Source: Nitrospira sp. (GTDB lineage: Bacteria; Nitrospirota; Nitrospiria; Nitrospirales; Nitrospiraceae). Taken from it: a stretch of 62,158 nucleotides of DNA. This document shows positions 9,659 to 22,976 of this stretch, piece after piece (positions within the stretch are counted from its first letter, which is position 1; each line of letters starts with the position of its first letter). The DNA lies in the NCBI GenBank assembly GCA_024998685.1, contig JACOEH010000027.1, positions 1-62,158 of the forward strand. Direction: 5' to 3'. Under the pieces are notes generated by a model. The model was given only the letters and a program-made list of their open reading frames with translations. It did not search any database and was not told the DNA's origin. Both the position numbers and the translations under genes were made by a program.

Positions 9659-10549
9659 ATGTCCAGTCCGGCTGTGTCATCTTCGAGCTCCTCAGGAATT
9701 CCTTGGCCTGCTCTTGCCCGATTGATCCGGCTGCCGAATCAGACCGGCACCTATCTCTTACTCTTGCCCACGATGTGGGGATTGGTACTGGCCGCCCGAG
9801 GGATTCCCTCACCTCATCTCGTAGCCATTTTCATCGGAGGATCGTTCTTAATGCGGAGCGCGGGAGTGATCATGAACGATTTGGCGGATCAATCGTTCGA
9901 CCGGCAGGTCGCTCGTACCAAAACTCGGCCATTGGCTTCAGGTGAGTTATCGCGGCACCATGCGACTATACTACTGGCCGCGCTCCTTGCCATAGCGGCA
10001 AGCCTCCTGTTTTTCCTTCGGCCGATCGTGACCTGGCTCGCTCCGATCGCAGTCTTTCTCGCAGCCCTCTACCCATACTCGAAACGATGGATCCATATCC
10101 CGCAAGCCATGCTTGGCATCGCGTTCGGCTGGGGAACGGTCATGGCCTGGGCCGCGGTACGAGGGCAATTGGATGCACCGGTGTGGTGTCTTTTTGGAGC
10201 AACCGCCGCCTGGGCCGTAGCCTATGACACGATCTACGCAATCCAGGATCAGGAAGATGATCGCCGCATTGGGGTCAAGTCGGCCGCCCTGTACTTCGGG
10301 TCTTCCGTTCACCAAGCAGTGGGCTTGGCATTCGGGATCATGCTGGCTTTCTTGATCACAGCCGGGTGGCTCGCTCAGTTGCGGTGGCCATATTACGCGG
10401 TACTCTTAGGCGTGTCGGTATTTTTTCTATTTCAAATCAGTCAGTTACGAAGGCCGATTGCACCGCCGTACGCCTTTGACATGTTCCGAAAGCACGTATG
10501 GGTTGGTATCGCCATCCTCGCCGGACTCTTCGCAGGTGTGCTGGTCTAG
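9659..10549 (+). CDS. ubiA: UbiA-family prenyltransferase
   Basis: A 296-residue integral membrane enzyme with about eight helices. It carries both aspartate-rich motifs of the family: NDLADQSFDRQVARTKTRPL and AIQDQEDDRRIGVKS, which bind the Mg-prenyl-diphosphate. The second motif and the length favour 4-hydroxybenzoate polyprenyltransferase, an early step of ubiquinone-type quinone synthesis, but other aromatic acceptors cannot be excluded. AAGG precedes the ATG. The stop codon overlaps, on opposite strands, the stop of the dihaem cytochrome gene (shared CTAG at 10546-10549), so the two genes converge with no spacer. Confidence 0.88.
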   Translation: MSSPAVSSSSSSGIPWPALARLIRLPNQTGTYLLLLPTMWGLVLAARGIPSPHLVAIFIGGSFLMRSAGVIMNDLADQSFDRQVARTKTRPLASGELSRHHATILLAALLAIAASLLFFLRPIVTWLAPIAVFLAALYPYSKRWIHIPQAMLGIAFGWGTVMAWAAVRGQLDAPVWCLFGATAAWAVAYDTIYAIQDQEDDRRIGVKSAALYFGSSVHQAVGLAFGIMLAFLITAGWLAQLRWPYYAVLLGVSVFFLFQISQLRRPIAPPYAFDMFRKHVWVGIAILAGLFAGVLV

Positions 10550-11571
10550 GGTTTTTCAACCGGCTTCTCGGCAATAGGTTCCGCTTTGGGAGCACGTAGC
10601 GTGGCGACGTACATGGTTACGGCCTTGGCGTCCATGTCATTCAGTCCCAATGCCGGCATGCGCGTGTGCGGGTCCATAGCCTGCGGATTCTTCAGCCAGC
10701 GATAGATCCAGGTCGCGTTCAGCCGAAATCCCGCTCGATCCAAGGCAGGGCCGATCTTGCCGCCCTCACCGTCCAGATTGTGGCAACCGTTGCAGCCGTA
10801 CTTATTTTCGTAGAGTCTTTTCCCAAGGTCGGCCAATTTCGCGGCTTCAGCGGGCTTGATTGTCAGATCCGGCCTTGGAATACTGACCCCCTTACCCGGT
10901 CTCGTGGAGAAGTTGTTCAGTGCAACCTGTGCCGCATCCATCTCTTTCTTGGCTTGTACCATCGCCGTTTGTTCGGCCGCATAGGCGGATTCATCCACGT
11001 CCACATCTTTCTTCAATTGTTCGCTCTTCCGCTCCGCTTCTTCGCTGGCTTTTTTCTCTGCCGCTTCATAGGCCTGCTTGGCCTGGTCAAATTTGGCCTG
11101 GGCGGTTTTCAACCCTTCTTCAAGCGAAGCTTTGCGCGCCGCGACGTTGAATTCCATCTTCATCCCGTGCAGGGTGCGCACGTGCCCGACGATCGCCCAG
11201 ATTTCATCCTCAGACAGCGTATATTTGAATGTCGGCATCGTCGGAACCGCAAAGTCATCGTCTCCGATCGGATCGCCACCCTCTTCGCTGGTGTCCAGCA
11301 TGTCGCGTGAGATCGTACTGAAGAGCTCCTCGTCTTTGAACGTGCCCATTTCGGATTTGTTCGACAAATCTTTCGGTTTCGGATCCGGCATAGCGGACCA
11401 ATTAAACCCTTGGTTTTGCTTGCCGCTCTCACCATGACAATCACTGCAGTAGTGAGTATAGAGCTCGTGCCCCCGCTTCTCATGCTCGCTCGCGCACCCT
11501 CCTGCGATCAAGGCTGCGCCCCCCACTATCCCAACCACCAACCCAATGACACCCAGCCGTGCCGCCTTCAT
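10546..11571 (-). CDS. Dihaem c-type cytochrome lipoprotein with a central coiled coil
   Basis: The 341-residue protein starts with a lipobox leader (GGAALIAGGC), so it is anchored on the periplasmic face. The first haem site is CSDCH near residue 40 in a class-I cytochrome domain. The second is CNGCH in a C-terminal domain, with PALGLNDMDA supplying a likely methionine ligand. Between them, about residues 145-245, lies a long charged helical stretch rich in Ala, Lys, Glu and Gln with coiled-coil character. It is the last gene of the respiratory operon, two bases after the preceding stop. It could pass electrons from the membrane complex to soluble carriers. An in-frame upstream extension is rejected because the leader begins naturally at MKAARLG. 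Confidence 0.9.
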   Translation of the reverse strand: MKAARLGVIGLVVGIVGGAALIAGGCASEHEKRGHELYTHYCSDCHGESGKQNQGFNWSAMPDPKPKDLSNKSEMGTFKDEELFSTISRDMLDTSEEGGDPIGDDDFAVPTMPTFKYTLSEDEIWAIVGHVRTLHGMKMEFNVAARKASLEEGLKTAQAKFDQAKQAYEAAEKKASEEAERKSEQLKKDVDVDESAYAAEQTAMVQAKKEMDAAQVALNNFSTRPGKGVSIPRPDLTIKPAEAAKLADLGKRLYENKYGCNGCHNLDGEGGKIGPALDRAGFRLNATWIYRWLKNPQAMDPHTRMPALGLNDMDAKAVTMYVATLRAPKAEPIAEKPVEKP

Positions 11572-11573
11572 GT

Positions 11574-12401
11574 TCACTGCCCTTTCTTGAGTTTTCTGAT
11601 CAGGACAAACTGAAATCCCAAGGCCAATGCAGCGGCTACCGCCGCATACATATAGCTGGAATAGTCCGGCGGGGCATCGGCTCGGAAATACCACCAAGAG
11701 GAGACGGCTTTTTGAGATCCCTTTTCGACCAACTCACCCGCGCCGTCTTTTCGTCCGTCCCATACCGCGAAAGCGATACTGATGAATTGTCCCGGCGTCA
11801 TTTGAACATCTTCTTCCGGATGGTCGGTCGAGAGATTTCTGGAAAAGACCACTTTCCAGGTCCCGTTGGAGTAGGCGCCCTTTGCGTTCACATCTTGATG
11901 CGTTTGCGGCTTCAATGTGCCGAAGCCTTTTGCACTCATATCGACAGCCTTGCCTACCTTATTTTTCCAGAACCAAATATTAACCGGCCCGCCTTCGACC
12001 TGCAGCATCGGTTGTCCGTGGGCAAAGTGCGCCTTCTTGTCCCCGACCATGAATTCGAGCGCCGCCCCATCGTCCGGATCTTGAGTGGGATCGGCATATT
12101 CCAGAAGAAAGGCGACCTGTTTCCCGTCGTGCAAGGCACGGACGGCTACATCCTTGACGGTGACTTCTTGGATGCGATTCGGCCAATGGACTTGCGGGGA
12201 CATTGGAAACGACGCAGGGGATGCACTACTCCAAGCTGCAGCATTCGGATCATCAAGGGGTAACCCACCGGTCACAAGCGAAGCCCGAACCGCCACGCTT
12301 TCTTGTGCGAACGTGAGCGATGCGCCACCGATGATCAGACTTGCGATCACCGCCGACCCACCGCGTAGAATCTGCTTTATCATTGGACTCGCCGGTTTCA
12401 T
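11574..12401 (-). CDS. Ethylbenzene-dehydrogenase/NxrC-type haem-b protein with C-terminal anchor
   Basis: The 275-residue protein has a signal peptide (SLIIGGASLTFAQ), a long periplasmic domain and one C-terminal membrane helix (YAAVAAALALGFQFVLI). The periplasmic part has the pattern of the EB_dh domain found in the gamma subunits of DMSO-reductase-family enzymes, including NxrC: PNAAAWSSASPASFPMSPQ near the start, LLEYADPTQDPDDGAALEFM and WKVVFSRNL. These subunits bind haem b through Met and Lys. No molybdopterin subunit is encoded here; instead the gene sits inside a cytochrome operon, which suggests use as an electron carrier or subunit of that complex. ATG 12401 has GAGG five bases upstream and is preferred to TTG 12425. 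Confidence 0.75.
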   Translation of the reverse strand: MKPASPMIKQILRGGSAVIASLIIGGASLTFAQESVAVRASLVTGGLPLDDPNAAAWSSASPASFPMSPQVHWPNRIQEVTVKDVAVRALHDGKQVAFLLEYADPTQDPDDGAALEFMVGDKKAHFAHGQPMLQVEGGPVNIWFWKNKVGKAVDMSAKGFGTLKPQTHQDVNAKGAYSNGTWKVVFSRNLSTDHPEEDVQMTPGQFISIAFAVWDGRKDGAGELVEKGSQKAVSSWWYFRADAPPDYSSYMYAAVAAALALGFQFVLIRKLKKGQ

Positions 12402-12450
12402 GCTGGCCTCGTTCTTCCTACACAACTACATCCCACGCTGTTCCTCTCCC

Positions 12451-13167
12451 TTACTCCCATGTTCGTGGAGATTGATGGGCTCCGTCGTATTCGCCCATAA
12501 TGATCTTCCAAATCCATTCATCCGGTAATTCCACTTCCCAGCGGGGCATGGCGGACTTCCATGGCGCACCCTCGATCGGGAGACCGACTCCGCCCTTCTT
12601 AATGCGCCAGAATAGATAACTTTCTTGCAACATTGCGATTGTCGTCGGATCGGCAAAATTGGCTGGAGGAGGGTTGAAGCCGCGAGCGGCCGGTCCCTTG
12701 CCGTCAAAGTTCCCGCCATGACAGGGTGAGCAAAAGGCCGCATAGAACCCCTTCCCTTGCATGATATTTTCCGGAGTCTTGGGAACAGGATTCGACAACC
12801 CGGTGTACTCCCCGGGCGGCGCAGGATGAATCGTTCTACCTTCCGTCGGCGGGAGGTCACTCGTGGCGGTACTCCCGTAGGTCTGCCACCCGACCAGAAG
12901 GGGAAACAGAATGAGCACCCCATATCGAAGAGCTTTCAAGCCTCCGATCTTCTCTCCGGTCATGAACCGCTGCATCGGCCCCCAGAAGGCATCTTTGGAC
13001 TCTCCGCTCAATGTCTCGTAGATGACGATGCCGGACGCAGTCAGGAGGAGATAGAGGAAAATCAGGCTGGAGGGAAGAGGCGCGGAGCCCGGTATGTTGG
13101 GCAGCACAAACTTCAGGAACACATACATGGCTATCATCAGTATGATCGGCTTACCTAACGCGCCCAT
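12451..13167 (-). CDS. Membrane-anchored monohaem cytochrome c
   Basis: 238 residues with three hydrophobic segments in the first 100 residues (IILMIAMYVFLKFVLP; SLIFLYLLLTASGIVIYE; ALRYGVLILFPLLVGW), then a periplasmic cytochrome c domain with one CSPCH. The haem domain continues FDGKGPAARGFNPPPANF and contains WRIKKGGVGLPIEGAPWKSA with a downstream AMPRW methionine, a pattern of small cytochromes linked to oxidases. The start overlaps the end of the gene at 13151-13804, showing tight coupling. Its probable role is electron transfer within the complex encoded by this operon. Confidence 0.88.
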   Translation of the reverse strand: MGALGKPIILMIAMYVFLKFVLPNIPGSAPLPSSLIFLYLLLTASGIVIYETLSGESKDAFWGPMQRFMTGEKIGGLKALRYGVLILFPLLVGWQTYGSTATSDLPPTEGRTIHPAPPGEYTGLSNPVPKTPENIMQGKGFYAAFCSPCHGGNFDGKGPAARGFNPPPANFADPTTIAMLQESYLFWRIKKGGVGLPIEGAPWKSAMPRWEVELPDEWIWKIIMGEYDGAHQSPRTWE

Positions 13168-13804
13168 ACGTTCCTCCCTCGTCGTGCGTGTGTGCGTCGG
13201 CGACCAATGAAGATTCAGCGGCTTTGACTGGAGCTGACGGCGCCTTACCCGGTATCTCCAAATCCGTCACGCTGATGGAGACCGGCTCACCGCTCATTTG
13301 CTGCAGAAACGCGATGACAGCCAAGATTTCATTTTTCGAGAGCCCGATCGGATCCTTGTTGATCGCCGGCATCGTCGCCGGATATTCCTTCGGCACCCCT
13401 CCATGTCGATAATCGTGGTACACGAACGCCTGGGGATCCGTCAGACTCTCATAGAGGAAGTCTCGGCTCAATTTGGCGCCGATCCCCTTCAAATCCGGGC
13501 AACGGGCGGATTCGCTGGGACCGATGGAATGGCATAGCGCGCATTGGCCTTTGCTGAAGAAGACCGTCTGTCCGATCGCCGCGATGTCGGTGGGGGTCTT
13601 GATGCTCGCGATGTCGATCTTTTCCTCTGCCGGAGGCAGCGACGCCAACTGCGGCACGGCGAGACACGTGATCGAAAACAACCCAAGGACGATGGCAACA
13701 AATCCCGTGACCCGGACAAATGTGGCCTTGATGAAGAGAAGGATCAGAATCCCGACCCCGACGATTGACAATGCGATCAATTGTAATTGTGCGACTTCAC
13801 TCAT
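13151..13804 (-). CDS. Membrane-anchored monohaem cytochrome c
   Basis: 217 residues. Two membrane helices lie near the N-terminus (LQLIALSIVGVGILILLFI; VTGFVAIVLGLFSITCLAVP), followed by a periplasmic cytochrome domain with CALCH at about residue 90 and a likely Met ligand in ATMPAINKD. The C-terminal tail after the haem domain is polar with a His-rich piece (DAHTHDEGG) that might bind metal. It overlaps the next gene by 17 bases. Its position directly after the first bd-like subunit suggests it donates or accepts electrons there. Confidence 0.88.
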   Translation of the reverse strand: MSEVAQLQLIALSIVGVGILILLFIKATFVRVTGFVAIVLGLFSITCLAVPQLASLPPAEEKIDIASIKTPTDIAAIGQTVFFSKGQCALCHSIGPSESARCPDLKGIGAKLSRDFLYESLTDPQAFVYHDYRHGGVPKEYPATMPAINKDPIGLSKNEILAVIAFLQQMSGEPVSISVTDLEIPGKAPSAPVKAAESSLVADAHTHDEGGTYGRVR

Positions 13805-13821
13805 AGGCCCTCGAATGTTAG

Positions 13822-13844
13822 GTGCTGAGTGCTGAGTACTGAGT
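13822..13844. repeat. Short tandem TGCTGAG-type repeat
   Basis: An imperfect run of about three units of a 7-8 base word (GTGCTGA, GTGCTGA, GTACTGA) lies between the bd-like gene and the cytochrome gene, followed by a T-run. A close copy occurs at 56081-56103, also followed by a homopolymer run. No coding content. Confidence 0.55.
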
Positions 13845-13883
13845 TTTTAAAGAAAGCTCACCATGTAACCATCAAAACTTTCT

Positions 13884-15743
13884 TCAAGTCTGTTGCCGCT
13901 CATCCGGAGCCCCTCCGGCCATAGCCGGAATGCCGTGCGGCAGTTCGCCCTTGCCTGATGCCGCAGCCGCTTTAGTCTTGTCACCCATGGTAGCGACCCA
14001 GAAGATAAACGCCACGAGGATGCAGAAGAAAAACGTGCAGAAGGCCATGATCAACGAGGCGCTGCCGAGGGCCGGCGAATAGGCATAGGGCGACGAATCG
14101 CGCATGACGCCGTACACATGCCAATGGACACGGGATGATGATCGCGCATACCCCATCAATGTCATGAGAAGAATGACCATCACGGCATTGAGGACCAGGG
14201 CATACCCGGCGCGCGGAGGCATACTGCCCCAGACCATTTCCGTCGTCGTCCTGGCGCTCTTGAGTAACAGCGCGGTCAACGGTGTGATGGTCAGAATGAC
14301 GAAGATGACGATCAGCACTTGGGACGTGGAGAAATAATTGATGCGGACGATGGCCGGCACGAAGTATCCCCAGACACCGAGGACGATAACCGCCGAACTG
14401 GCCAGCACCAACACCGCGCCCATAACCGCTTTGCCCAGCGTCGCCCAACCGGCTGTGTCTTGCTTCCCTGCCCGCCAATACATGACGAAGCTCATGAAGG
14501 TAATGAGGATCATAAGGTTCGACACCGTCATTTTGGCCGACATGACGCCCAGGACGCCGAGCAACGGGTGATGGGCTCCTCCCATTTTCTGGGCCTCTTC
14601 GATGCTGGCTACGAGCGAGTGCGGGGTCATCCACACCGCGAGACAGAACAGCAAGCTGATCAGCATCCACAGCATCGGTCGCCGATATTTTGCCATTGAT
14701 CCAGGAATGCGATAGGTAATCCCCAGCCAGAAATAATAATTGGACCCAAGAAACAAGACCCCGATCAACATGGCTTGGATGATGAAGAGCCAGGATAGAA
14801 ATCCTCCCATCAGCGTAATGCCCATCTGCTGGTTGTACTGGTAGATTTCCCGCATGAGCCAGTAGCCGGCGAACGGCAGGGCCAGCAGGCCGAACACACC
14901 GATAAAGTTGCCGACATAGCCCATCCAGTCATAATGCTCCCGATCCTCGGGACTCTTGACCGACAAGTACCGGACCCCGGCATAGGCTCCGCAAATGTAC
15001 CCGCCGAGCACGACGTTGGCGATGAACCGGTGGATGTTGATCGGCCACCAGGTCGGATTCCAGGTCGCAGCCCAGGCTCGCTCAATAGCCGTGCCTTCGG
15101 AAATCACGACCGGGCTGGCTTGGAACGTGGCCCAGGCATTGGGCACGATCATGATGAACACAGCGAAGAAGTTCAGCAGGAATCCTAGAAACACGTGCAG
15201 CGTTTTCTTCTTGCCGTCCTGCATGGCATCCCACCCGTACCAATACAAATACAGTGTCGCGGTTTCGAGCAAGAACAGAAGGCAGTAGAGCAAGAAGGAC
15301 GGGAAGAAGACGTCCGTCAAATAATTCATGAGCTTGGGGTAGAACGACACTAAGAGAAACAGCAGAATGCCGCCGAAGAGAGCGGTAGTTGCATAGGCTG
15401 AAGTGAGGAGCTTGGTAAATTCCTTGGCGAGCTTGTCGTAGCGCTTTTCGCCTCCCCTCCACGCGATGACTTCGCACAGCCACGCGAAGATCGGCACGCC
15501 CAAGACAAACCCAGCCAACAGGAGGTGCAACTGCGCGACGATCCAGACGAGGTTCCGACTGCCGATGTAGGGGATATCGCGATATTCGGTAGGGCCGGCC
15601 GCAACTCCATCCGCTGCGAGACCGATTGAAGGGAAGACAAGCCAGCCGACCGTCAACAAGAGACCTGCGAGCCATCCACCGTGACCTCCAACGGCCCGGA
15701 GAGCTCGCTGAATTGTTCCGACCCCTTGTTGTATGGCACTCAC
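13884..15743 (-). CDS. Cytochrome-bd-like oxidase subunit I (CydA-like A)
   Basis: 619 residues with about 14 membrane helices, longer than CydA of E. coli (about 520). The first core helix has AQLHLLLAGFVLGVPIF, whose His aligns with the CydA haem ligand His19. NIHRFIANVVLGGYICGA aligns with the helix carrying His186, and LFLLETATLYLYWYGWD aligns with the one holding Glu107. The Glu99 position is hydrophobic. The quinol-binding GRQPW motif is absent: the equivalent place reads YWLMREIYQYNQQ. It may therefore take electrons from cytochromes rather than quinol. The start is GTG 15743, preceded by a purine-rich GGTGATGAG, because any longer frame would overlap the upstream gene. No CydB gene is present nearby. 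Confidence 0.83.
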   Translation of the reverse strand: MSAIQQGVGTIQRALRAVGGHGGWLAGLLLTVGWLVFPSIGLAADGVAAGPTEYRDIPYIGSRNLVWIVAQLHLLLAGFVLGVPIFAWLCEVIAWRGGEKRYDKLAKEFTKLLTSAYATTALFGGILLFLLVSFYPKLMNYLTDVFFPSFLLYCLLFLLETATLYLYWYGWDAMQDGKKKTLHVFLGFLLNFFAVFIMIVPNAWATFQASPVVISEGTAIERAWAATWNPTWWPINIHRFIANVVLGGYICGAYAGVRYLSVKSPEDREHYDWMGYVGNFIGVFGLLALPFAGYWLMREIYQYNQQMGITLMGGFLSWLFIIQAMLIGVLFLGSNYYFWLGITYRIPGSMAKYRRPMLWMLISLLFCLAVWMTPHSLVASIEEAQKMGGAHHPLLGVLGVMSAKMTVSNLMILITFMSFVMYWRAGKQDTAGWATLGKAVMGAVLVLASSAVIVLGVWGYFVPAIVRINYFSTSQVLIVIFVILTITPLTALLLKSARTTTEMVWGSMPPRAGYALVLNAVMVILLMTLMGYARSSSRVHWHVYGVMRDSSPYAYSPALGSASLIMAFCTFFFCILVAFIFWVATMGDKTKAAAASGKGELPHGIPAMAGGAPDERQQT

Positions 15744-15759
15744 CTCATCACCTCGCAAA

Positions 15760-16764
15760 TTACGGTTTCGTATCGGCAGAGGAGTCCTTGGCTGTTCGGC
15801 TTTCGGCCTTCCCCTTGCCCTTTTCTTTCTGCCCTTTTGTTTCTGCCTTGTGCCGTTCCATCTCCTCAACTTGCGCCGCAAGCGACGCGATCCGCTGCGC
15901 ATTCTTGTTCAATGATTCGATCGGCTTAAAAGCCGGTTCGACCTGTATCTCAGGTTTTTTACAGCAGTCGTGCGGATTGGGCGTCGTCACCGGAAGGATG
16001 GCCCAAAACACCAGCGACAGGACCACGCCGACACCCGCCAATGAAGCCAACAACAACCCTTGATCGGTCGGCACGCGCATCAAATCCCAACGGGTCACGA
16101 TTCCTTGATAATTTTCAGATACCGGACGTGAGTGTTCCGCCATCCGCCGAACGATCTGTCCAAGTATGGAAATCCCGATGACCGCCAAGACGATCAGAAC
16201 CGCCGACGAGATGGATCCCCAGATCGTGAGCTCGAGACCGATTCGTTCCGCGATGGGAAGACCGGTGCCGAAGAGATGTCGCATGCTGTCCATTTCGGCC
16301 ATCGAGTGGGAGGCGCTGATAGCGATCTCCGTGACACGGCTGACAATCCACCAAAGAAGTGGAAGAAAGAAGGTCCCAATAAGCGCAGCCCTCCACCAGA
16401 TCGCGAAACCAAGCCCATCGGGGGGCGGCTCTTTCCGAAGCCGTTCCAAAAAGAACGTTCGCCCCACCAGTCCGAGCGCCCAGATGTCGACGGGGATGGA
16501 CATCCCAAAAATGAACGGCAGCCCGATCCCTTCACCGAAGTGCGTCTCAAAGACGGCGATGATGATTGGGGCGGCAAAGACTGTGACGGGACTGGCAAAC
16601 AGCATTAAAAAGGCAAGACCGAATCGTCCTTCGAAATGCACCAATCCCATCGTCATGACAAGAACCGCAAACACCGCCTTAATGGGGATGCCGGTCCAGC
16701 AGGCAGACCACAGGATACCGAACCCTATCTTCGTCGGCGACATCGATTCTCGTTCTTCAGCCAT
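15760..16764 (-). CDS. Polytopic membrane protein with a C-terminal coiled coil, oxidase-associated
   Basis: 334 residues with about six or seven membrane helices and a charged C-terminal tail after residue 280 (SLNKNAQRIASLAAQVEEME, then a Lys/Glu/Gly-rich run) that looks like a short coiled coil ending in disorder. A CC pair precedes the tail (HDCCKKPEIQ). It matches no family I can name; no haem motif is visible. It is flanked by cytochrome b (16784) and the bd-like subunit (15743), with gaps of about 20 bases, so it is probably a structural subunit of the same complex. Its last bases lie 16 bases before the next start. ATG 16764 is used. Confidence 0.78.
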   Translation of the reverse strand: MAEERESMSPTKIGFGILWSACWTGIPIKAVFAVLVMTMGLVHFEGRFGLAFLMLFASPVTVFAAPIIIAVFETHFGEGIGLPFIFGMSIPVDIWALGLVGRTFFLERLRKEPPPDGLGFAIWWRAALIGTFFLPLLWWIVSRVTEIAISASHSMAEMDSMRHLFGTGLPIAERIGLELTIWGSISSAVLIVLAVIGISILGQIVRRMAEHSRPVSENYQGIVTRWDLMRVPTDQGLLLASLAGVGVVLSLVFWAILPVTTPNPHDCCKKPEIQVEPAFKPIESLNKNAQRIASLAAQVEEMERHKAETKGQKEKGKGKAESRTAKDSSADTKP

Positions 16765-16783
16765 GGCCAAACGTGTACCAGGA

Positions 16784-17911
16784 TCAGTCCAAGAACTCTC
16801 GGTTAATCACGGATGCAACCGTGAACAAGACGATCACGACCATGATCGCAATCCAGCTGATGAGAGCAATCGGTCGCTTGAAAATATTCCGCTCGGGATC
16901 CTTGTCGATGAACGGGAGTGCGACGAGCAACGCCATGAAGGCGACCGGCAATGCCACGGCACCCAAAAATTGACCGAACTCACCGGCGAACAGCTTCAAC
17001 CTGAGCAATTGGAAATAAAAAAGAAAATACCATTCCGGTTCTGGATGGTAGTCCCCTGGATCCGGCGCCGCCTCATCCAATAAAACGACCGGCTCCCAGA
17101 GAGCCAAGGCGCAGATCCCTACGAAGACGAACGCCATCCCGACCATATCTTTCCAAATTTGACGGGGAAAGAAATAGTCGGTTTTCGCTTTGATCTCCTC
17201 CACCGTACCAGTGAAGGGTCCTGCAGGAGCGGCCACGCGAAACAGGAACAGATGCAATCCGGCCAAGGCCATGAGCGCCGCCGGAAGAATCATCACATGG
17301 AGGACGAAGAATCGGCTCAAGGTCATCTGTCCGGGAGTCGGCCCACCTTTCAGAAATCGGGCGATAAAATCACCGATAATGGGAGTCTTATCCAAGATTT
17401 CGACACCCACAGTCGTGGCCCAGAACGCCCGTTGGTCCCAGGGCAAGAGGTAACCCGTAAAGCCGAAGGTGATCACAACACCGAACAGGGCCAATCCGAC
17501 AAGCCACAGCAATTCTCGCGGCTTCTTGTACGCCCCCCAGAGAAACACCTGGGACATGTGTGCCACCACACAGACGACCATCGCACTGGATCCCCAGAAA
17601 TGATAGCCGAGCAGGAACCACCCATAATCGACATCGTGAATAATATACTGCGTACTGGCATAGGCATGGTCGGCGGTCGGCACATAATAGAACATGAGCA
17701 AGATACCGGTCAGAGCCTGCATGGCGAAGATGAACAACAAGATGGATCCGAACACATAGGCCCAGCGGGAGCCGCCGGGGATCGGTTCATTCAGCATCTT
17801 GGCCTGCATTTCCTTGAGACCGATGCGTTCGTCAAGGAAAGCGACAAGCTTTTCGATCGCGCTGGGACGATGATCGGGAATGACTGTCGATGATGATTGC
17901 TTGCTATCCAT
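16784..17911 (-). CDS. Cytochrome b of a bc/b6f-type complex
   Basis: 375 residues. Helix B holds two haem-ligand histidines 14 residues apart (YHFWGSSAMVVCVVAH) and helix D two that are 15 apart (LHVMILPAALMALAGLH), the spacing typical of cytochrome b6 rather than mitochondrial cytochrome b. The ef loop has PEPEWYFLFYFQLLRL, the PEWY quinol-oxidation motif. Three helices follow helix D, so b6 and subunit IV are fused. The cysteine that attaches haem c in b6 is replaced (WAYVFGS). It is the quinol-oxidising core subunit, working with the Rieske protein just upstream. A TTG at 17926 that overlaps the Rieske stop is an alternative start. Confidence 0.93.
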   Translation of the reverse strand: MDSKQSSSTVIPDHRPSAIEKLVAFLDERIGLKEMQAKMLNEPIPGGSRWAYVFGSILLFIFAMQALTGILLMFYYVPTADHAYASTQYIIHDVDYGWFLLGYHFWGSSAMVVCVVAHMSQVFLWGAYKKPRELLWLVGLALFGVVITFGFTGYLLPWDQRAFWATTVGVEILDKTPIIGDFIARFLKGGPTPGQMTLSRFFVLHVMILPAALMALAGLHLFLFRVAAPAGPFTGTVEEIKAKTDYFFPRQIWKDMVGMAFVFVGICALALWEPVVLLDEAAPDPGDYHPEPEWYFLFYFQLLRLKLFAGEFGQFLGAVALPVAFMALLVALPFIDKDPERNIFKRPIALISWIAIMVVIVLFTVASVINREFLD

Positions 17912-17922
17912 GCCGCCAGCTT

Positions 17923-18858
17923 TCAAATGATCCGAATTTGTGATTTCGTACCGGCCTTGAACTCCATGTCGATAACCTCAACGTCTCCCGAGGCAGAAAC
18001 CCTTATGGGCAATGCGTCAAGGGCACGAGGCGCTGGGCCGTCGAGCACCTTCCCTGCGGCATCGTAGATGCTGAGGTGGCAAGGACAAAGAAACACTTGT
18101 CCCAACGTCTTATGCTGTCGCCACTTGAATGCGCAGCCTAAATGAGGACACTTACCGGAGAACGCCACATAGGGAGTGTCTTTCTTGTTGGTCCAGATCG
18201 TCTTCCCCTTGGCGTCTCGAAACTCCATGTCCTTGTCATGATAGACTCTCTCGAGAAGCTCGGGAGTCGCTCGGAGGATCCAGACGTTTTTATCGATTTC
18301 GCTCTCCGGCATATAGACTTCTTTGACCTTTTTCTTGTACTTGAACTGCACGCCGACGTCGTCCTGCTTGATCTTGCCGACATTGCCCACGTTCAACCAG
18401 TGGTTGTCGAAATCCGCATACATCGGCTTCATCAAAAAGCGGAGAATGGGGTACGCGATAGGCAGGCCGACCAAGAATCCGATGATATTCGTGAAATTCA
18501 TGAAAAACGTGCGGCGCTTGACGCTTTTTTCGAGATCGGGCAACGGCACCAACACTTCGCCCGGCGTCACATGGATGTTGTCCTCGAGGTGCGAGATCTC
18601 CACTTCATGCGTGGTGACATAATCTTCTCGCTTGAAGGGAGGCAAGGCGAGGATATCCATTGACGGCGCGCGCAACTGCACGAAGTCATCCGTCACAGCC
18701 TGGACATGGCCCATGGCGACTTGCCGCTCACCGTTCCCATTCATGGACACCACGATATGGCTGATCTCGTGGGAAAGGGGATCGAGCACGACCTTCGTGA
18801 CTTCGCCGATGTCGAGGTCGGTGCACCGGACCTTGGATTTCAGTTTCGGTTGCAACAT
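17923..18858 (-). CDS. Rieske iron-sulfur protein with an N-terminal PRC-barrel-like domain
   Basis: 311 residues. Residues about 8-75 (VRCTDLDIGEVTKVVLDPLS, HIVVSMNGNGERQVAMGHVQ) look like a PRC-barrel: a small beta barrel with 'IG.V..vvlDp' and 'VVS....R.vp...V'. A single membrane helix follows at about 125-150 (FTNIIGFLVGLPIAYPILRF). The C-terminal Rieske domain has both cluster motifs, CPHLGC and CPCH, with LSIYDAAG after the second. Usual Rieske subunits are about 180-200 residues and start at the membrane helix, so the N-terminal domain is an addition. It would lie in the cytoplasm if topology is standard. ATG overlaps the previous stop as TGATG, indicating coupling. Confidence 0.92.
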   Translation of the reverse strand: MLQPKLKSKVRCTDLDIGEVTKVVLDPLSHEISHIVVSMNGNGERQVAMGHVQAVTDDFVQLRAPSMDILALPPFKREDYVTTHEVEISHLEDNIHVTPGEVLVPLPDLEKSVKRRTFFMNFTNIIGFLVGLPIAYPILRFLMKPMYADFDNHWLNVGNVGKIKQDDVGVQFKYKKKVKEVYMPESEIDKNVWILRATPELLERVYHDKDMEFRDAKGKTIWTNKKDTPYVAFSGKCPHLGCAFKWRQHKTLGQVFLCPCHLSIYDAAGKVLDGPAPRALDALPIRVSASGDVEVIDMEFKAGTKSQIRII

Positions 18859-19667
18859 CAGCTTTTCTTGATCGGCTTGGGGGTATTCACCGAGGTGTTC
18901 TTGAAGGTGCCTAACCAAGCGGCGAGAGCCTGCATTTCCTTGGGCTCCATGAGGTCTTTAAATTTGTTGGGCATGATGCCCTTCTGGTATTCCTTCTCAT
19001 ACCCCTCAGCCATAAAGCTCTTGGGATCCGCAATTTTCTGTTGGATTTCATCGACCGTCAGCAATGAGCCGATATTATCCAATTCGGGGCCTCGCTTCTT
19101 TCCACCCTCACCCCTCAACTTGTGGCAGTTGTAACACTCTTGCAGTTGCCACTGTTCCTCGCCCACCTTCATGAAATCGCCGGCGCCCGTGCCGGCTGCC
19201 GCAGCAGGCTTTTCTCCAGCCGATGGCGCCGGAGCTGTCGCCACAGCTTGACCACTGCCCAACCCCTTCAGTCGCTCTTCCAAGGCTTTCACCTGTTCAT
19301 CGAGGGCCTTGGCGCGAGCAATCAGCTCCTCGGCCTTCCCCTTCTGAGAGGCAGCCCGCTCTTTTCCCAAAAGTTTGTCGATTTTGGCCCGTTCATCCTC
19401 CGGGTCAAACTGAGGCAACAGCGATGCGCCGGCAACACAGACGGTCACCAAGAGAATCCAGAATGCGATAACAGCCAAGAGGGCCTTCCCTCCGCTCATC
19501 GTCCCGATCGGCTGCGCGTCAAGCAGTATGAAAACGACCGCCCCGATCAATGCAACGATGAAGAACAACACTTGGAATGAGATGGGCAGCTCCTGCCAAT
19601 GTCCGACGAGAATAAGAGCACCACCAACCACCAGCCCAATGCCTAGCTTCTTGAATATATTCCCCAT
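18858..19667 (-). CDS. Membrane-anchored monohaem cytochrome c with a coiled-coil linker
   Basis: 269 residues: three hydrophobic segments in the first 90 residues, then a heptad-like helical stretch at about 105-140 (IARAKALDEQVKALEERLKG), an Ala/Pro-rich linker, and a C-terminal cytochrome c domain with CYNCH and a likely Met ligand (GIMPNKFKDLM). Its stop overlaps the Rieske start (TGATG). It therefore probably plays the cytochrome c1/f role in the complex with the Rieske protein and cytochrome b. The long linker would let the haem domain reach other subunits. Confidence 0.88.
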   Translation of the reverse strand: MGNIFKKLGIGLVVGGALILVGHWQELPISFQVLFFIVALIGAVVFILLDAQPIGTMSGGKALLAVIAFWILLVTVCVAGASLLPQFDPEDERAKIDKLLGKERAASQKGKAEELIARAKALDEQVKALEERLKGLGSGQAVATAPAPSAGEKPAAAAGTGAGDFMKVGEEQWQLQECYNCHKLRGEGGKKRGPELDNIGSLLTVDEIQQKIADPKSFMAEGYEKEYQKGIMPNKFKDLMEPKEMQALAAWLGTFKNTSVNTPKPIKKS

Positions 19668-19705
19668 ACGAATCTCGTCGCCTCAGTAGGCGCTCCACGC
19701 TGTGA

Positions 19706-21418
19706 TTACTTGGCTGCGATCGGAACAGGACTTCCCTCGGGCTCTCGTACCCTTGCGACGGAAGGCCGAAGAGCCACCAGCGCAGCCACGCTGACGATGG
19801 CGATAAACACGACGGTAATCGCCGTAATCCACCCGGCCGAATACGAGAGTGTCGGAGTAAACGACTCGGCACTGAGGTCCGACACCAAACTATAGACATG
19901 GAAGTATTTCTTGAGCAACGAGCGCACCGCCCCCATCAACCCCATGATCCACGTGGAAGTGAATGCCAGAAAAATCAGCACAAATTGCGCCGCGAAATCG
20001 ATTCGCCCCCAGAAGATCGTGCCCTGCTTGATGGTTCGGTTATACAAGACATAATTGACGACCGTCACATACACCAATGTCAAGATTGCCGAAAGCTTGG
20101 CCGGCATCGACGACAGATAGTCCCACCCTTCCGGCAGTTTCATGTCGTCGGGCATATCGGTGCCGGTGGCCACGAAACCGGCGGGCGTGAGCCAGACGGC
20201 ATCGCTGATGAGCATAATGATAAAGCCGATCCTGATGACGGTCCGTGCCGAGACGGTCTTGGGAATAAACCGGCCCAATAAAAACGGTGATAACGTGAGG
20301 GGCAGCAAGAACACCAACGACATTGGATCGGGAATCCAAAACTTATCCATCACCCACATCGTAGCGGGGAGCAATACGATGAGGACGATAGGGGCCAAGA
20401 TGGTCATCCGAACATTTTCGGCCCCTTCAATTCGTTTGACACTGAGCCAGCTATAATAGTTGATGCCCAGGAACAGCAGCCCAATCATGATGCCTTGCGT
20501 TTCAAAAAACATGGAAAGCTGATCGGCCATCATGTACGGGCAGAATGAAAAATCATAATCGCACATTTCATACGCCAACAAGAGCCCTGTAAACGGCTGC
20601 AAGAGCGACCCACCCACCGCGATCCAGATGGCGGCGAAGCCCATCCAATCGTAGTAGGCTCTCTCCTCCTGCGTCTTCGACCCCATGTACATGTAGGCAG
20701 CGATCATCCCGGCAATAAACCCTCCGAATGCCACGTTGCCGTCGATTCGGTGGAGACTCAGAGGGAACCAACTTTGGTTCGCAATCTTATCCCACAAGGT
20801 TGCTGTCGCGATGAAATCCTGCGGCGAAATCCCTTCAGCCTTCGGCGGTGTGTTCATGAACGACGTGGGGCCGTTAATGACGAACAAGATGAGCAGACAG
20901 ACAAGATTCAAGAGCACACCAAGAGCAATGTGGCGCCCTTTCTTTTCACCCTTCCAGACATCCCAAGTGTAGAGGTAGGCATACATGAGGATGGTCTCAG
21001 CGATAAACAGCGCCGGATATAATACCGCGAACACCATGTAAAACTGATTGATGAACGAGGTCGTGAACTGTGGATAGGCGGCCAGAAGAACGAAAATAAA
21101 CAAGCCACCCGTCACAGCCGTCATACTGAAGAGAATAACCGTAACTTTCGTGATCTCTTTAGCCAGACGATCATACCGGGGGTCCTGCTTACGGTAACCC
21201 AACCATTCTGAAATGACGACGAAGATCGGCGCACCCAGGATAAATGCGGCAAATAAGATATGGAGTTGAGCGACAATCCATACAGCCGTCCGATTACCGG
21301 TGTACGGAAACTCCACTGAGGATGCGCCAACTTCCTGAGCGGAGACACTGCTAGCAGCAGCCATACACAACGAGAACAACACAACGAGAGTCAGGAGACC
21401 GCTCGACAGTTTTTTCAC
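19706..21418 (-). CDS. Cytochrome-bd-like oxidase subunit I (CydA-like B)
   Basis: 570 residues, beginning with a cleavable-looking signal (LVVLFSLCMAAASSVSAQ) and then about 13 membrane helices. AQLHILFAAFILGAPIF carries the His19-like ligand, SLHRIDGNVAFGGFIAGM the His186-like one and ALFIAETILMYAYLYTWD the Glu107-like residue. Glu99 and the GRQPW quinol loop are missing, as in the paralogue at 13884. It opens the operon; GTG 21418 has GAGG four bases upstream. Two CydA-like proteins in one operon around a bc core is unusual. One may be an oxygen-reducing unit and the other a structural or redox partner, possibly replacing CydB. Confidence 0.83.
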   Translation of the reverse strand: MKKLSSGLLTLVVLFSLCMAAASSVSAQEVGASSVEFPYTGNRTAVWIVAQLHILFAAFILGAPIFVVISEWLGYRKQDPRYDRLAKEITKVTVILFSMTAVTGGLFIFVLLAAYPQFTTSFINQFYMVFAVLYPALFIAETILMYAYLYTWDVWKGEKKGRHIALGVLLNLVCLLILFVINGPTSFMNTPPKAEGISPQDFIATATLWDKIANQSWFPLSLHRIDGNVAFGGFIAGMIAAYMYMGSKTQEERAYYDWMGFAAIWIAVGGSLLQPFTGLLLAYEMCDYDFSFCPYMMADQLSMFFETQGIMIGLLFLGINYYSWLSVKRIEGAENVRMTILAPIVLIVLLPATMWVMDKFWIPDPMSLVFLLPLTLSPFLLGRFIPKTVSARTVIRIGFIIMLISDAVWLTPAGFVATGTDMPDDMKLPEGWDYLSSMPAKLSAILTLVYVTVVNYVLYNRTIKQGTIFWGRIDFAAQFVLIFLAFTSTWIMGLMGAVRSLLKKYFHVYSLVSDLSAESFTPTLSYSAGWITAITVVFIAIVSVAALVALRPSVARVREPEGSPVPIAAK

Positions 21419-21807: not shown

Positions 21808-22290
21808 TCATTTAGCGCCGGCATCGCCCCATTGCTTCTTCTCTTCATTCCAAGCCTTCCCAGCCAATCCAAAATTTCGCTCATACAGCACAAGCTTCCA
21901 TCGGTCTTCCTCTGAGAGCTTACTCTTCCAGCCTTTCATCTTGGTATTCGGCACTCCCTCGGAAATACGCCAAAACCACACGGAGTCCGAATAGAGCTTC
22001 ATCCGCTCAGGATTTCGGAAATCCGTGGCACCCGCCTTGACCGGCTTTCCGTCTTTACCATGACAGCTGGCACAGTTCACGTCGGGATTTGTCTGACCGA
22101 TAAAGAGTTTGCGTCCCTCTTCCAGCTTCTGAACATCTCCCCACCAATCTGCCGGCATATGCTTGTCGACATATTCAGCTGGAGCCGGCGGTGGCGGCAC
22201 GATCGGCCCCTCACCTTGCTCTCCGCAACTCGATAATAGCCCCACACTCATGATCAATACAGCATGAATCGAGCTGACCCGCATATTCAT
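21808..22290 (-). CDS. Monohaem c-type cytochrome lipoprotein
   Basis: 160 residues. The leader ends in a good lipobox (VGLLSSC), so it is a periplasmic lipoprotein. A Pro-rich spacer follows, then a class-I cytochrome domain with CASCH at about residue 80 and two candidate Met ligands (NPERMKLY; NTKMKGW). WFWRISEGVPNTKMKGWKSK is very close in pattern to the cytochrome at 12451 (WRIKKGGVGLPIEGAPWKSA), so the two share ancestry. It lies upstream of, and in the same direction as, the respiratory operon but is separated by about 390 bases. A mobile electron carrier for that complex is a reasonable guess. Confidence 0.87.
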   Translation of the reverse strand: MNMRVSSIHAVLIMSVGLLSSCGEQGEGPIVPPPPAPAEYVDKHMPADWWGDVQKLEEGRKLFIGQTNPDVNCASCHGKDGKPVKAGATDFRNPERMKLYSDSVWFWRISEGVPNTKMKGWKSKLSEEDRWKLVLYERNFGLAGKAWNEEKKQWGDAGAK

Positions 22291-22505: not shown

Positions 22506-22976
22506 TCATGATTTTCTCTTTCCCAGGGATTTCGCCTTGACCCGTTCCTGCTTCCGCTGAGAACGGACAAATTTCATCCCGATAATACCGGTGGCTATTG
22601 CGAAGACCGCTCCGCTTCCCCACCAAAGCCAAGCGGGAGGCCCATGCGCCTCACAGCCAGTTCCAAAATTAACCCGGATCTTCCGTTCACTCTCTAGATC
22701 TTTTGGATCGAATTCGACTTTAAGATTTTGCTGCTCCCCCTTCGCCTCTACCAGAAGGGGATCGCCAAGATTGTCGTTGTGCAGATGAAACATCGCTTTG
22801 TAATAGCCATCTCCATCCGTCCTGACGACCTGACCGTATGAAACCCTGGTGTCCTTGACGAGGACATCTGTATTCGAAAGCCCCTTGCCATCCTGTCCGC
22901 AAACATACCCCTCCACCATGAAACGATGATCCGCTTCATGTGTGGCCTGTGCCACAGGTGGGAACGCCACGTTCAT
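22506..22976 (-). CDS. Exported carboxypeptidase-regulatory-like beta-sandwich protein with C-terminal anchor
   Basis: 156 residues from ATG 22976. Residues about 18-110 resemble a carboxypeptidase-regulatory or Cna-B type beta sandwich (FMVEGYVCGQDGKGLSNTDV, then TRVSYGQVVRTDGDGYYKAM). One membrane helix follows (WLWWGSGAVFAIATGIIGMK) and then a basic cytoplasmic tail (RSQRKQERVKAKSLGKRKS). The ATG start leaves only the end of a signal peptide. The frame stays open upstream for 28 codons with a proper leader (GLFTLACCLVMNVAF, then AQA), a strong AGAAGGAG at 23058-23065 and ACG six bases after it at 23051. The true start is probably this ACG or a damaged ATG. Function unknown. Confidence 0.7.
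   Translation of the reverse strand: MNVAFPPVAQATHEADHRFMVEGYVCGQDGKGLSNTDVLVKDTRVSYGQVVRTDGDGYYKAMFHLHNDNLGDPLLVEAKGEQQNLKVEFDPKDLESERKIRVNFGTGCEAHGPPAWLWWGSGAVFAIATGIIGMKFVRSQRKQERVKAKSLGKRKS

Follow-up and report, generated by a model that had tools for sequence, protein, structure and literature searches.

Do the genes for a cytochrome bc complex and for a cytochrome bd-like oxidase that share one operon in Nitrospira encode one respiratory assembly or two? The question is raised by contig JACOEH010000027.1 of Nitrospira sp. (GenBank assembly GCA_024998685.1), a stretch of 62,158 nucleotides that was analysed whole and is called the window here. The initial annotation, made from the letters of the sequence, had proposed a single ten-gene operon for a hybrid of bd-like oxidase and bc complex. 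The reading that we favour, with moderate confidence, is that the operon is conserved in Nitrospirales and encodes a combination of complex III with a cytochrome bd-like terminal oxidase of the OR-N (CydAA') type, the products probably acting together in one loose supercomplex.

The ten genes all lie on the minus strand, from 21418 down to 10546, and Pfam and NCBIfam searches bore out the contents first read from the sequence: two CydA-like proteins, a b6-type cytochrome b, a Rieske protein, a membrane protein with a coiled-coil part, four cytochromes c and an NxrC-like protein. The five haem c sites on four cytochromes were likewise found (CXXCH motifs distributed 1+1+1+2). The Pfam families are two Cyt_bd_oxida_I, Rieske, the N and C parts of Cytochrome_B, four cytochromes c and EB_dh (NxrC-type), with gene 5 unmatched. 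The names bdA, bdB, cc, c7, c8 and c10, and cup and cpd for two genes described below, were coined in the present analysis. In the order of transcription, the genes are:

19706..21418, minus strand: bdB, CydA-like protein at the position of bd-like_1 (PF01654, 5.2e-24; probably OR-N1, going by the literature)
18858..19667, minus strand: cytc_B, membrane-anchored mono-haem cytochrome c (Pfam; CXXCH at residue 178; hydrophobic N-terminal segments)
17923..18858, minus strand: Rieske protein whose N-terminal domain resembles a PRC-barrel and precedes a twin-arginine-like anchor (PF00355; PRC seen in homologues)
16784..17926, minus strand: cytochrome b with a b6-like N part and a short C part (Pfam/NCBIfam; His 109/123 and 210/225; PEWY at 297)
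15760..16764, minus strand: cc (gene 5), membrane protein with a helical, charged C-terminal tail (without known family; helical model)
13884..15743, minus strand: bdA, CydA-like protein at the position of bd-like_2, Nide0901-like (PF01654, 2.1e-19; fold match; OR-N2 by literature)
13151..13804, minus strand: c7, membrane-anchored mono-haem cytochrome c (Pfam, CXXCH; fused to bdA in some relatives)
12451..13167, minus strand: c8, membrane-anchored mono-haem cytochrome c (Pfam, CXXCH)
11574..12401, minus strand: alternative NxrC (alt_NxrC_1), haem-b protein resembling the gamma subunit of the type II dimethyl sulfoxide (DMSO) reductase family (PF09459, 3.5e-25)
10546..11571, minus strand: c10, di-haem cytochrome c with a lipoprotein-like start, last gene of the unit (Pfam; CXXCH at 46 and 264)

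The tight packing noted at the outset was also confirmed, with intergenic gaps of -17 to 79 bases; from bdB to c10 they are 38, -1, -4, 19, 16, 79, -17, 49 and 2 bases when the starts judged likely are used. Two mechanically called starts are probably too far upstream: that of bdA at 15902 and that of c10 at 11697. By eye, homologues and a lipobox favour GTG 15743 and ATG 11571, respectively. The alternative NxrC also matches TIGR03477 (5.7e-33, under the cut-off), and its C-terminal hydrophobic segment (258-276) forms a membrane anchor. A ubiA-like gene (9659-10549) converges on c10.

Evidence that the ten genes belong together came from a search of 245 Nitrospirota genomes, with thresholds of E<=1e-40 for bdA-type proteins and E<=1e-75 for bdB. 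Proteins of the bdA type were found in 110 of the 245 and bdB in 83. Within the order, both CydA-like genes are present in 77/77 genomes by a row count made by hand, and bdB is single-copy at its threshold in 76 of these. The region was read in all 77, the window included. The ten genes are contiguous and in this order in 70, one of which has cytc_B in two frames (L087); the remaining seven comprise six loci cut by contig ends (L050, L055, L101, L114, L120, L125) and one variant (L074). An overlapping named genome collection was scanned with an alignment of gene 5, and the best 80 of 176 relatives were kept; among the other 96, gene 5 may also occur outside Nitrospirota. Of these best 80, 79 are labelled Nitrospira, Nitrospirae, Nitrospirota or Nitrospiraceae and one Nitrosospira. 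All ten genes are present in 51 of their loci and contig ends cut 27; the last two are the Nitrospira genome RCA (L175, the same assembly as L074) and RSF48 (L200). Chance adjacency was considered and rejected, since the order is conserved across relatives.

The unit extends one gene further upstream. Two genes precede bdB in the window:

21808..22290, minus strand: cup, mono-haem, lipoprotein-like cytochrome c (Pfam cytochrome c; conserved 5' of bdB)
22506..22976, minus strand: cpd, small protein, probably an associated gene (weak match to the carboxypeptidase regulatory-like family PF13620, 0.012, under the cut-off; one C-terminal membrane stretch, by eye)

Among complete loci with at least 2.5 kb of upstream sequence, cup lies 5' of bdB on the same strand in 65/65 from the genome sample and 49/49 from the named collection, and cpd is found upstream at E<=1e-6 in 53/65 and 49/49, respectively. 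We count cup as the eleventh gene of the unit despite the 389 bases that separate it from bdB in the window. Weak pattern scans flagged 24 terminator-like and 18 promoter-like sites in the region, including one of each (22399-22373 and 22438-22410, respectively) 5' of cup.

The closest known system comes from a 2019 paper that we take to be by Mundinger et al., cited below by its accession; this and the other published accounts are cited for the portions available to us. The region described there for N. moscoviensis is highly transcribed. Besides the CIII_1 core, it holds bd-like_1 and bd-like_2, which were taken as a putative complex IV, as well as alt_nxrC_1 and several cytochromes c; two of these cytochromes lie between the genes of the putative oxidase and alt_nxrC_1. 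A III/IV supercomplex that may contact nitrite oxidoreductase (NXR) was proposed (PMC6606698). The initial annotation had called the architecture of the assembly not settled. That remains so, but the locus was not unreported, the N. moscoviensis cluster and the III/IV idea having both been published in 2019 (PMC6606698). The cluster and the supercomplex idea are thus already known, and the window operon is an orthologue of the N. moscoviensis cluster. On NZ_CP011801.1 (L216), the genes run cpd, cup, bdB, cytc_B, Rieske, cytochrome b, gene 5, bdA, c7, c8, NxrC, c10 and a converging ubiA-like gene, that is, the same genes in the same order, differing from the window only by sequence divergence (54-87% identity per gene). 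This locus agrees with the published account, also in its two cytochromes c ahead of alt_nxrC_1. The available portion of the N. moscoviensis account makes no mention of gene 5 or of a PRC-like Rieske domain (PMC6606698).

For the oxidase half, a structure model of bdA was made. Built from 45 sequences, with a mean predicted local distance difference test (pLDDT) of 79.8 and a predicted template modelling score (pTM) of 0.80, it matches CydA chains with Z 31-34 over 339-359 residues at a root-mean-square deviation of 3.5-4.0. It has 13 long helices, about four above the nine of CydA. In all four CydA-like paralogues of the genome, the equivalents of E. coli CydA R9, H19, E107 and H186 are retained, and those of K252 and E257 in the quinol loop (Q-loop) are missing; the haem-ligand roles given here to CydA residues are presumed ones. 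The pair shares with canonical CydAB the CydA fold and the equivalents of H19 and H186, but differs from it in lacking the Q-loop, and no CydB-type family occurs among the ten proteins. It has instead several features of the OR-N type, reportedly defined by Murali et al. in 2021: a CydA fold (from the model, for bdA), haem-ligand histidines conserved in both proteins, an absent Q-loop (from the residues of bdA and bdB) and extra membrane helices (from the bdA model only). A sequence tree separates bdA from bdB; the labels OR-N1 and OR-N2 come from papers, as the tree holds no reference sequences. A search of PDB sequences with the CydA-like proteins for a solved OR-N structure returned only ordinary bd subunits and stray matches, and bdA had no match at E<=0.001 in a library of viral folds.

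A 2025 survey of the order classes the Nide0901-like subunit as OR-N2, paired with an OR-N1 CydA (PMC12342949), and work on Nitrospinota (PMC10839748) and on marine Nitrospirales (PMC10579370) considers such bd-like proteins the likely terminal oxidase, one that oxidises cytochrome c. A Nitrospina paper expresses more doubt and suggests a role like that of complex III (PMC3578206). The window resembles the described OR-N CydAA' systems in having two CydA-like proteins, a missing quinol site and cytochromes c nearby (PMC12342949, PMC10839748).

H381, H397 and H398 are invariant in bdA (86 close sequences and the window protein). In bdB (74 sequences and the window protein), H397 and H398 are unconserved and the H381 column is His in 71% of rows. 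This contrast fits bdA as the catalytic partner but is no proof of it, because seven bdA relatives at 42-55% identity fully keep H381 and H397, and H398 in 71%. A C-terminal cytochrome c is present on bdA in seven loci of six genomes (L061-L066, L074; checked with Pfam in L062 and L074, and by CXXCH only in the others), and these natural fusions support a probable contact between c7 and bdA and, indirectly, cytochrome c as the putative donor for O2 reduction.

The bc half carries the marks of bc and b6f complexes, namely four haem-b histidines, PEWY and the Rieske 2Fe-2S motifs, with the meanings that we take these to have. The Rieske motifs, CPHLGC and CPCHLS, are invariant across 25 sequences. 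About 110 residues precede the twin-arginine-like motif of the Rieske protein; PRC-barrel matches were obtained in 17/25 homologues at E<=1 (best 7.3e-5), the window copy itself having none, and a literature search found no paper combining Rieske, PRC-barrel and cytochrome b. The four cytochromes c of the operon are candidates for the bc cytochrome c subunit. Two family searches found a single complex III cytochrome b in the assembly, which is 98.8% complete. Forward and reverse electron flow would therefore share this cytochrome b, unless a second is missing from the assembly, and a role in both directions fits.

Gene 5 is encoded between the bc and bdA halves. It had no Pfam or NCBIfam match, no family common to more than 5 of 49 homologues at E<=1, no relative below E 0.6 among PDB sequences and no outstanding fold match, and it was rejected as a known subunit on these grounds. 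As its model is helical and of middling confidence (pLDDT 73.4), the fold search does not show a new fold. We infer that gene 5 encodes a lineage-specific membrane subunit. In the two relatives from the class outside the order whose gap was read at this position (L056, L058), gene 5 gives way to a short frame, in which a single hydrophobic stretch and a charged tail are kept.

Under the favoured reading, electrons from periplasmic nitrite oxidation would enter through the cytochromes c and through the NxrC-like protein with its membrane anchor. From there, c7 would pass them to bdA, and bdA and bdB would reduce O2. Using the proton motive force, the cytochrome pool could also drive electrons backwards through cytc_B, the Rieske protein and cytochrome b to quinone, to supply NADH and ferredoxin; alternatively, quinol electrons would be taken forwards through the bc half. 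The products would probably act as one loose supercomplex. Actinobacteria have a bc-aa3 supercomplex in which bc and oxidase form one obligate unit; the principle is shared, and the oxidase family is unrelated.

Outside the order, the bdA and bdB modules occur apart. Among 11 class-level genomes, three (families f6 and f7; L056-L058) have bdB to c10 in order, with c10 29-31% identical, and the other eight have a bdA-type match and no bdB at E<=1e-75. Loci were read in six of these eight (all but G119 and G131). Three loci (L062, L064, L066) hold bdA, a long NxrC-like protein and cytochromes c, together with a different Rieske protein and b6 (split in L062 and L064), and antiporter-like genes are present in L062-L066. 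The clusters with antiporter genes in L062 and L064 also contain homologues of cup and cpd. Seven loci from other families, mostly on short contigs (L067-L073), have bdA-type proteins at 42-50% identity; six carry c7/c8-like cytochromes and show no bc genes within reach. Outside the class, bdB and a membrane cytochrome c adjoin genes for a molybdopterin oxidoreductase and a 4Fe-4S protein in three Nitrospirota (L224-L226). The cytochrome is best matched by cytc_B in L224 and L225 and by cup in L226, and no bc or bdA gene lies within the 8-20 kb read. Given this separate occurrence, the unit looks like a composite of three or more modules that only Nitrospirales and their close relatives keep locked together. 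The initial annotation had suggested a comparison of gene order across Nitrospirota, with free separation of bd-like and bc genes as grounds for refutation. Within Nitrospirales the two sets stay together, with one broken cluster, in RSF48, among the loci read, but in the class and phylum the CydA-like modules come apart. The comparative data thus point to co-function inside Nitrospirales and to a probable modular origin outside.

The same window genome holds other respiratory genes. Its sole haem-copper oxidase subunit I match is split across two frames (contig C9, 92030-93284; L135), which leaves bdA as the best cytochrome c oxidase candidate. A canonical CydA (PF01654) lies elsewhere, with a CydB-like neighbour (by eye). 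A second cluster (contig C24, 27386-38700; L075) encodes another two CydA-like proteins together with cytochromes c and a long NxrC-like protein that bears two CXXCH motifs, as described for bd-like_3/4 of N. moscoviensis; two further NxrC-like genes lie on C24. Of seven molybdopterin matches, three were inspected by eye; one resembles NarG and the other two NuoG. A search for ammonia monooxygenase (AMO) gave no match, with the controls equally unmatched.

Several observations weigh against the favoured reading. E99 of E. coli CydA is replaced by Tyr in each of the four paralogues, and equivalents of the ligands M393 and E445 were not reliably placed by sequence. The bdA-specific histidines do not single out an O2 site, because most are common to distant bdA relatives. 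In RSF48 (L200:6560-8073), the cluster breaks inside bdA, with the ubiA-like gene directly after; this place lacks the greater part of bdA as well as the next four genes, through deletion or misassembly, and a search of the RSF48 genome found no full bdA elsewhere. The presumed N. moscoviensis NxrA query, cut from one of five frames of 1149-1175 residues and identified by length and copy number, was unmatched in the window's assembly in a search that had no positive control, and the nitrite-oxidising donor stays putative here; absence from a 105-contig assembly is no proof, and may reflect an assembly gap. The separate bdA and bdB modules outside the order count on the same side. Finally, gene order is compatible with one complex or with two co-regulated ones and cannot separate them.

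The operon might instead encode two separate complexes, a conventional bc complex and an oxidase of the OR-N type, which are only co-transcribed and between which cytochromes c shuttle. This is a real but distinctly less probable possibility. It would account for the eight class relatives with bdA-type matches and no bdB at the threshold used, and for the three phylum members in which bdB and a membrane cytochrome c accompany molybdoenzyme genes. It sits poorly with the one order kept in 70/77 genomes, with gene 5 between the halves, and with several cytochromes that look membrane-anchored, not soluble. We consider it unlikely that the CydA-like proteins are not oxygen reductases at all, and are membrane electron-transfer or quinone modules serving reverse flow, like the NrfD-like subunits of alternative complex III. 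The bdA model does match the membrane subunits of alternative complex III (Z 19-23) and chain C of polysulfide reductase (Z 15), the bdB homologues beside molybdopterin oxidoreductase and 4Fe-4S genes would suit such a role, and bd-like homologues in anammox bacteria have been proposed to act on quinone as a complex-III-like system (PMC3578206). Against this, CydA chains are by far the best match, the haem-ligand histidines are retained, and the split haem-copper oxidase match leaves bdA as the candidate named above. Reduction of O2 by the bd-like proteins seems the likelier function, and a single assembly of the two halves is plausible and already published.

One variant bears on what the unit can incorporate. 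In Nitrospira sp. RCA (L074:8992-14822; L175), bdA is fused to c7 and is 62% identical, and two Proton_antipo_M genes (6.2e-58 and 6.5e-41; a complex-I/Mrp-type pump) lie between bdA-c7 and c8 in an otherwise normal cluster. In the tree, the window's bdA belongs to a Nitrospirales clade of 16 rows (100/100). The RCA bdA falls outside this clade, on a branch flagged as long, and the RCA bdB groups inside Nitrospirales. These positions suggest that the RCA bdA and pump genes were probably imported by transfer; the variant rests on one assembly. A comparable design is TO_2 of Ca. Manganitrophaceae, which shares with the window a bdA-like protein, an NxrC-like protein and a membrane cytochrome b, and whose description is matched by the class relatives L062 and L064, with two antiporter-like genes (PMC9040806). 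Two antiporter-like subunits are present in L074, L062 and L064; unlike TO_2, the window operon has no antiporter gene among its ten proteins and no bdA-c7 fusion. RCA was listed in the 2025 survey as a comammox metagenome-assembled genome with a V/A-type ATPase (PMC12342949), and the antiporter type was restricted to Manganitrophaceae among the genomes of the TO_2 study (PMC9040806). The RCA hybrid was not found in the available portions of either paper or in a literature search. RCA is thus a hybrid of window-type and TO_2-type designs in a Nitrospira. This fusion with its pump genes, and the bdB genes beside molybdoenzyme genes in three genomes outside the class, are the new details. A speculative extension, which we hold to be improbable as it stands, is that the operon is one modular redox machine in which bdA offers a docking face for complex-I-type pumps. 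The RCA insertion would then give a redox-driven H+/Na+ pump or pump-driven reverse electron transfer, and bdB with its membrane cytochrome c would be a general module serving molybdoenzymes elsewhere.

Nitrospira is a main nitrifier, and biochemical proof of its terminal oxidase was not found in the literature available to us. The fixed operon, its eleventh gene, the bdA-cytochrome c fusions and the RCA variant lead to testable predictions about the electron donor, the O2 reducer and ion pumping.

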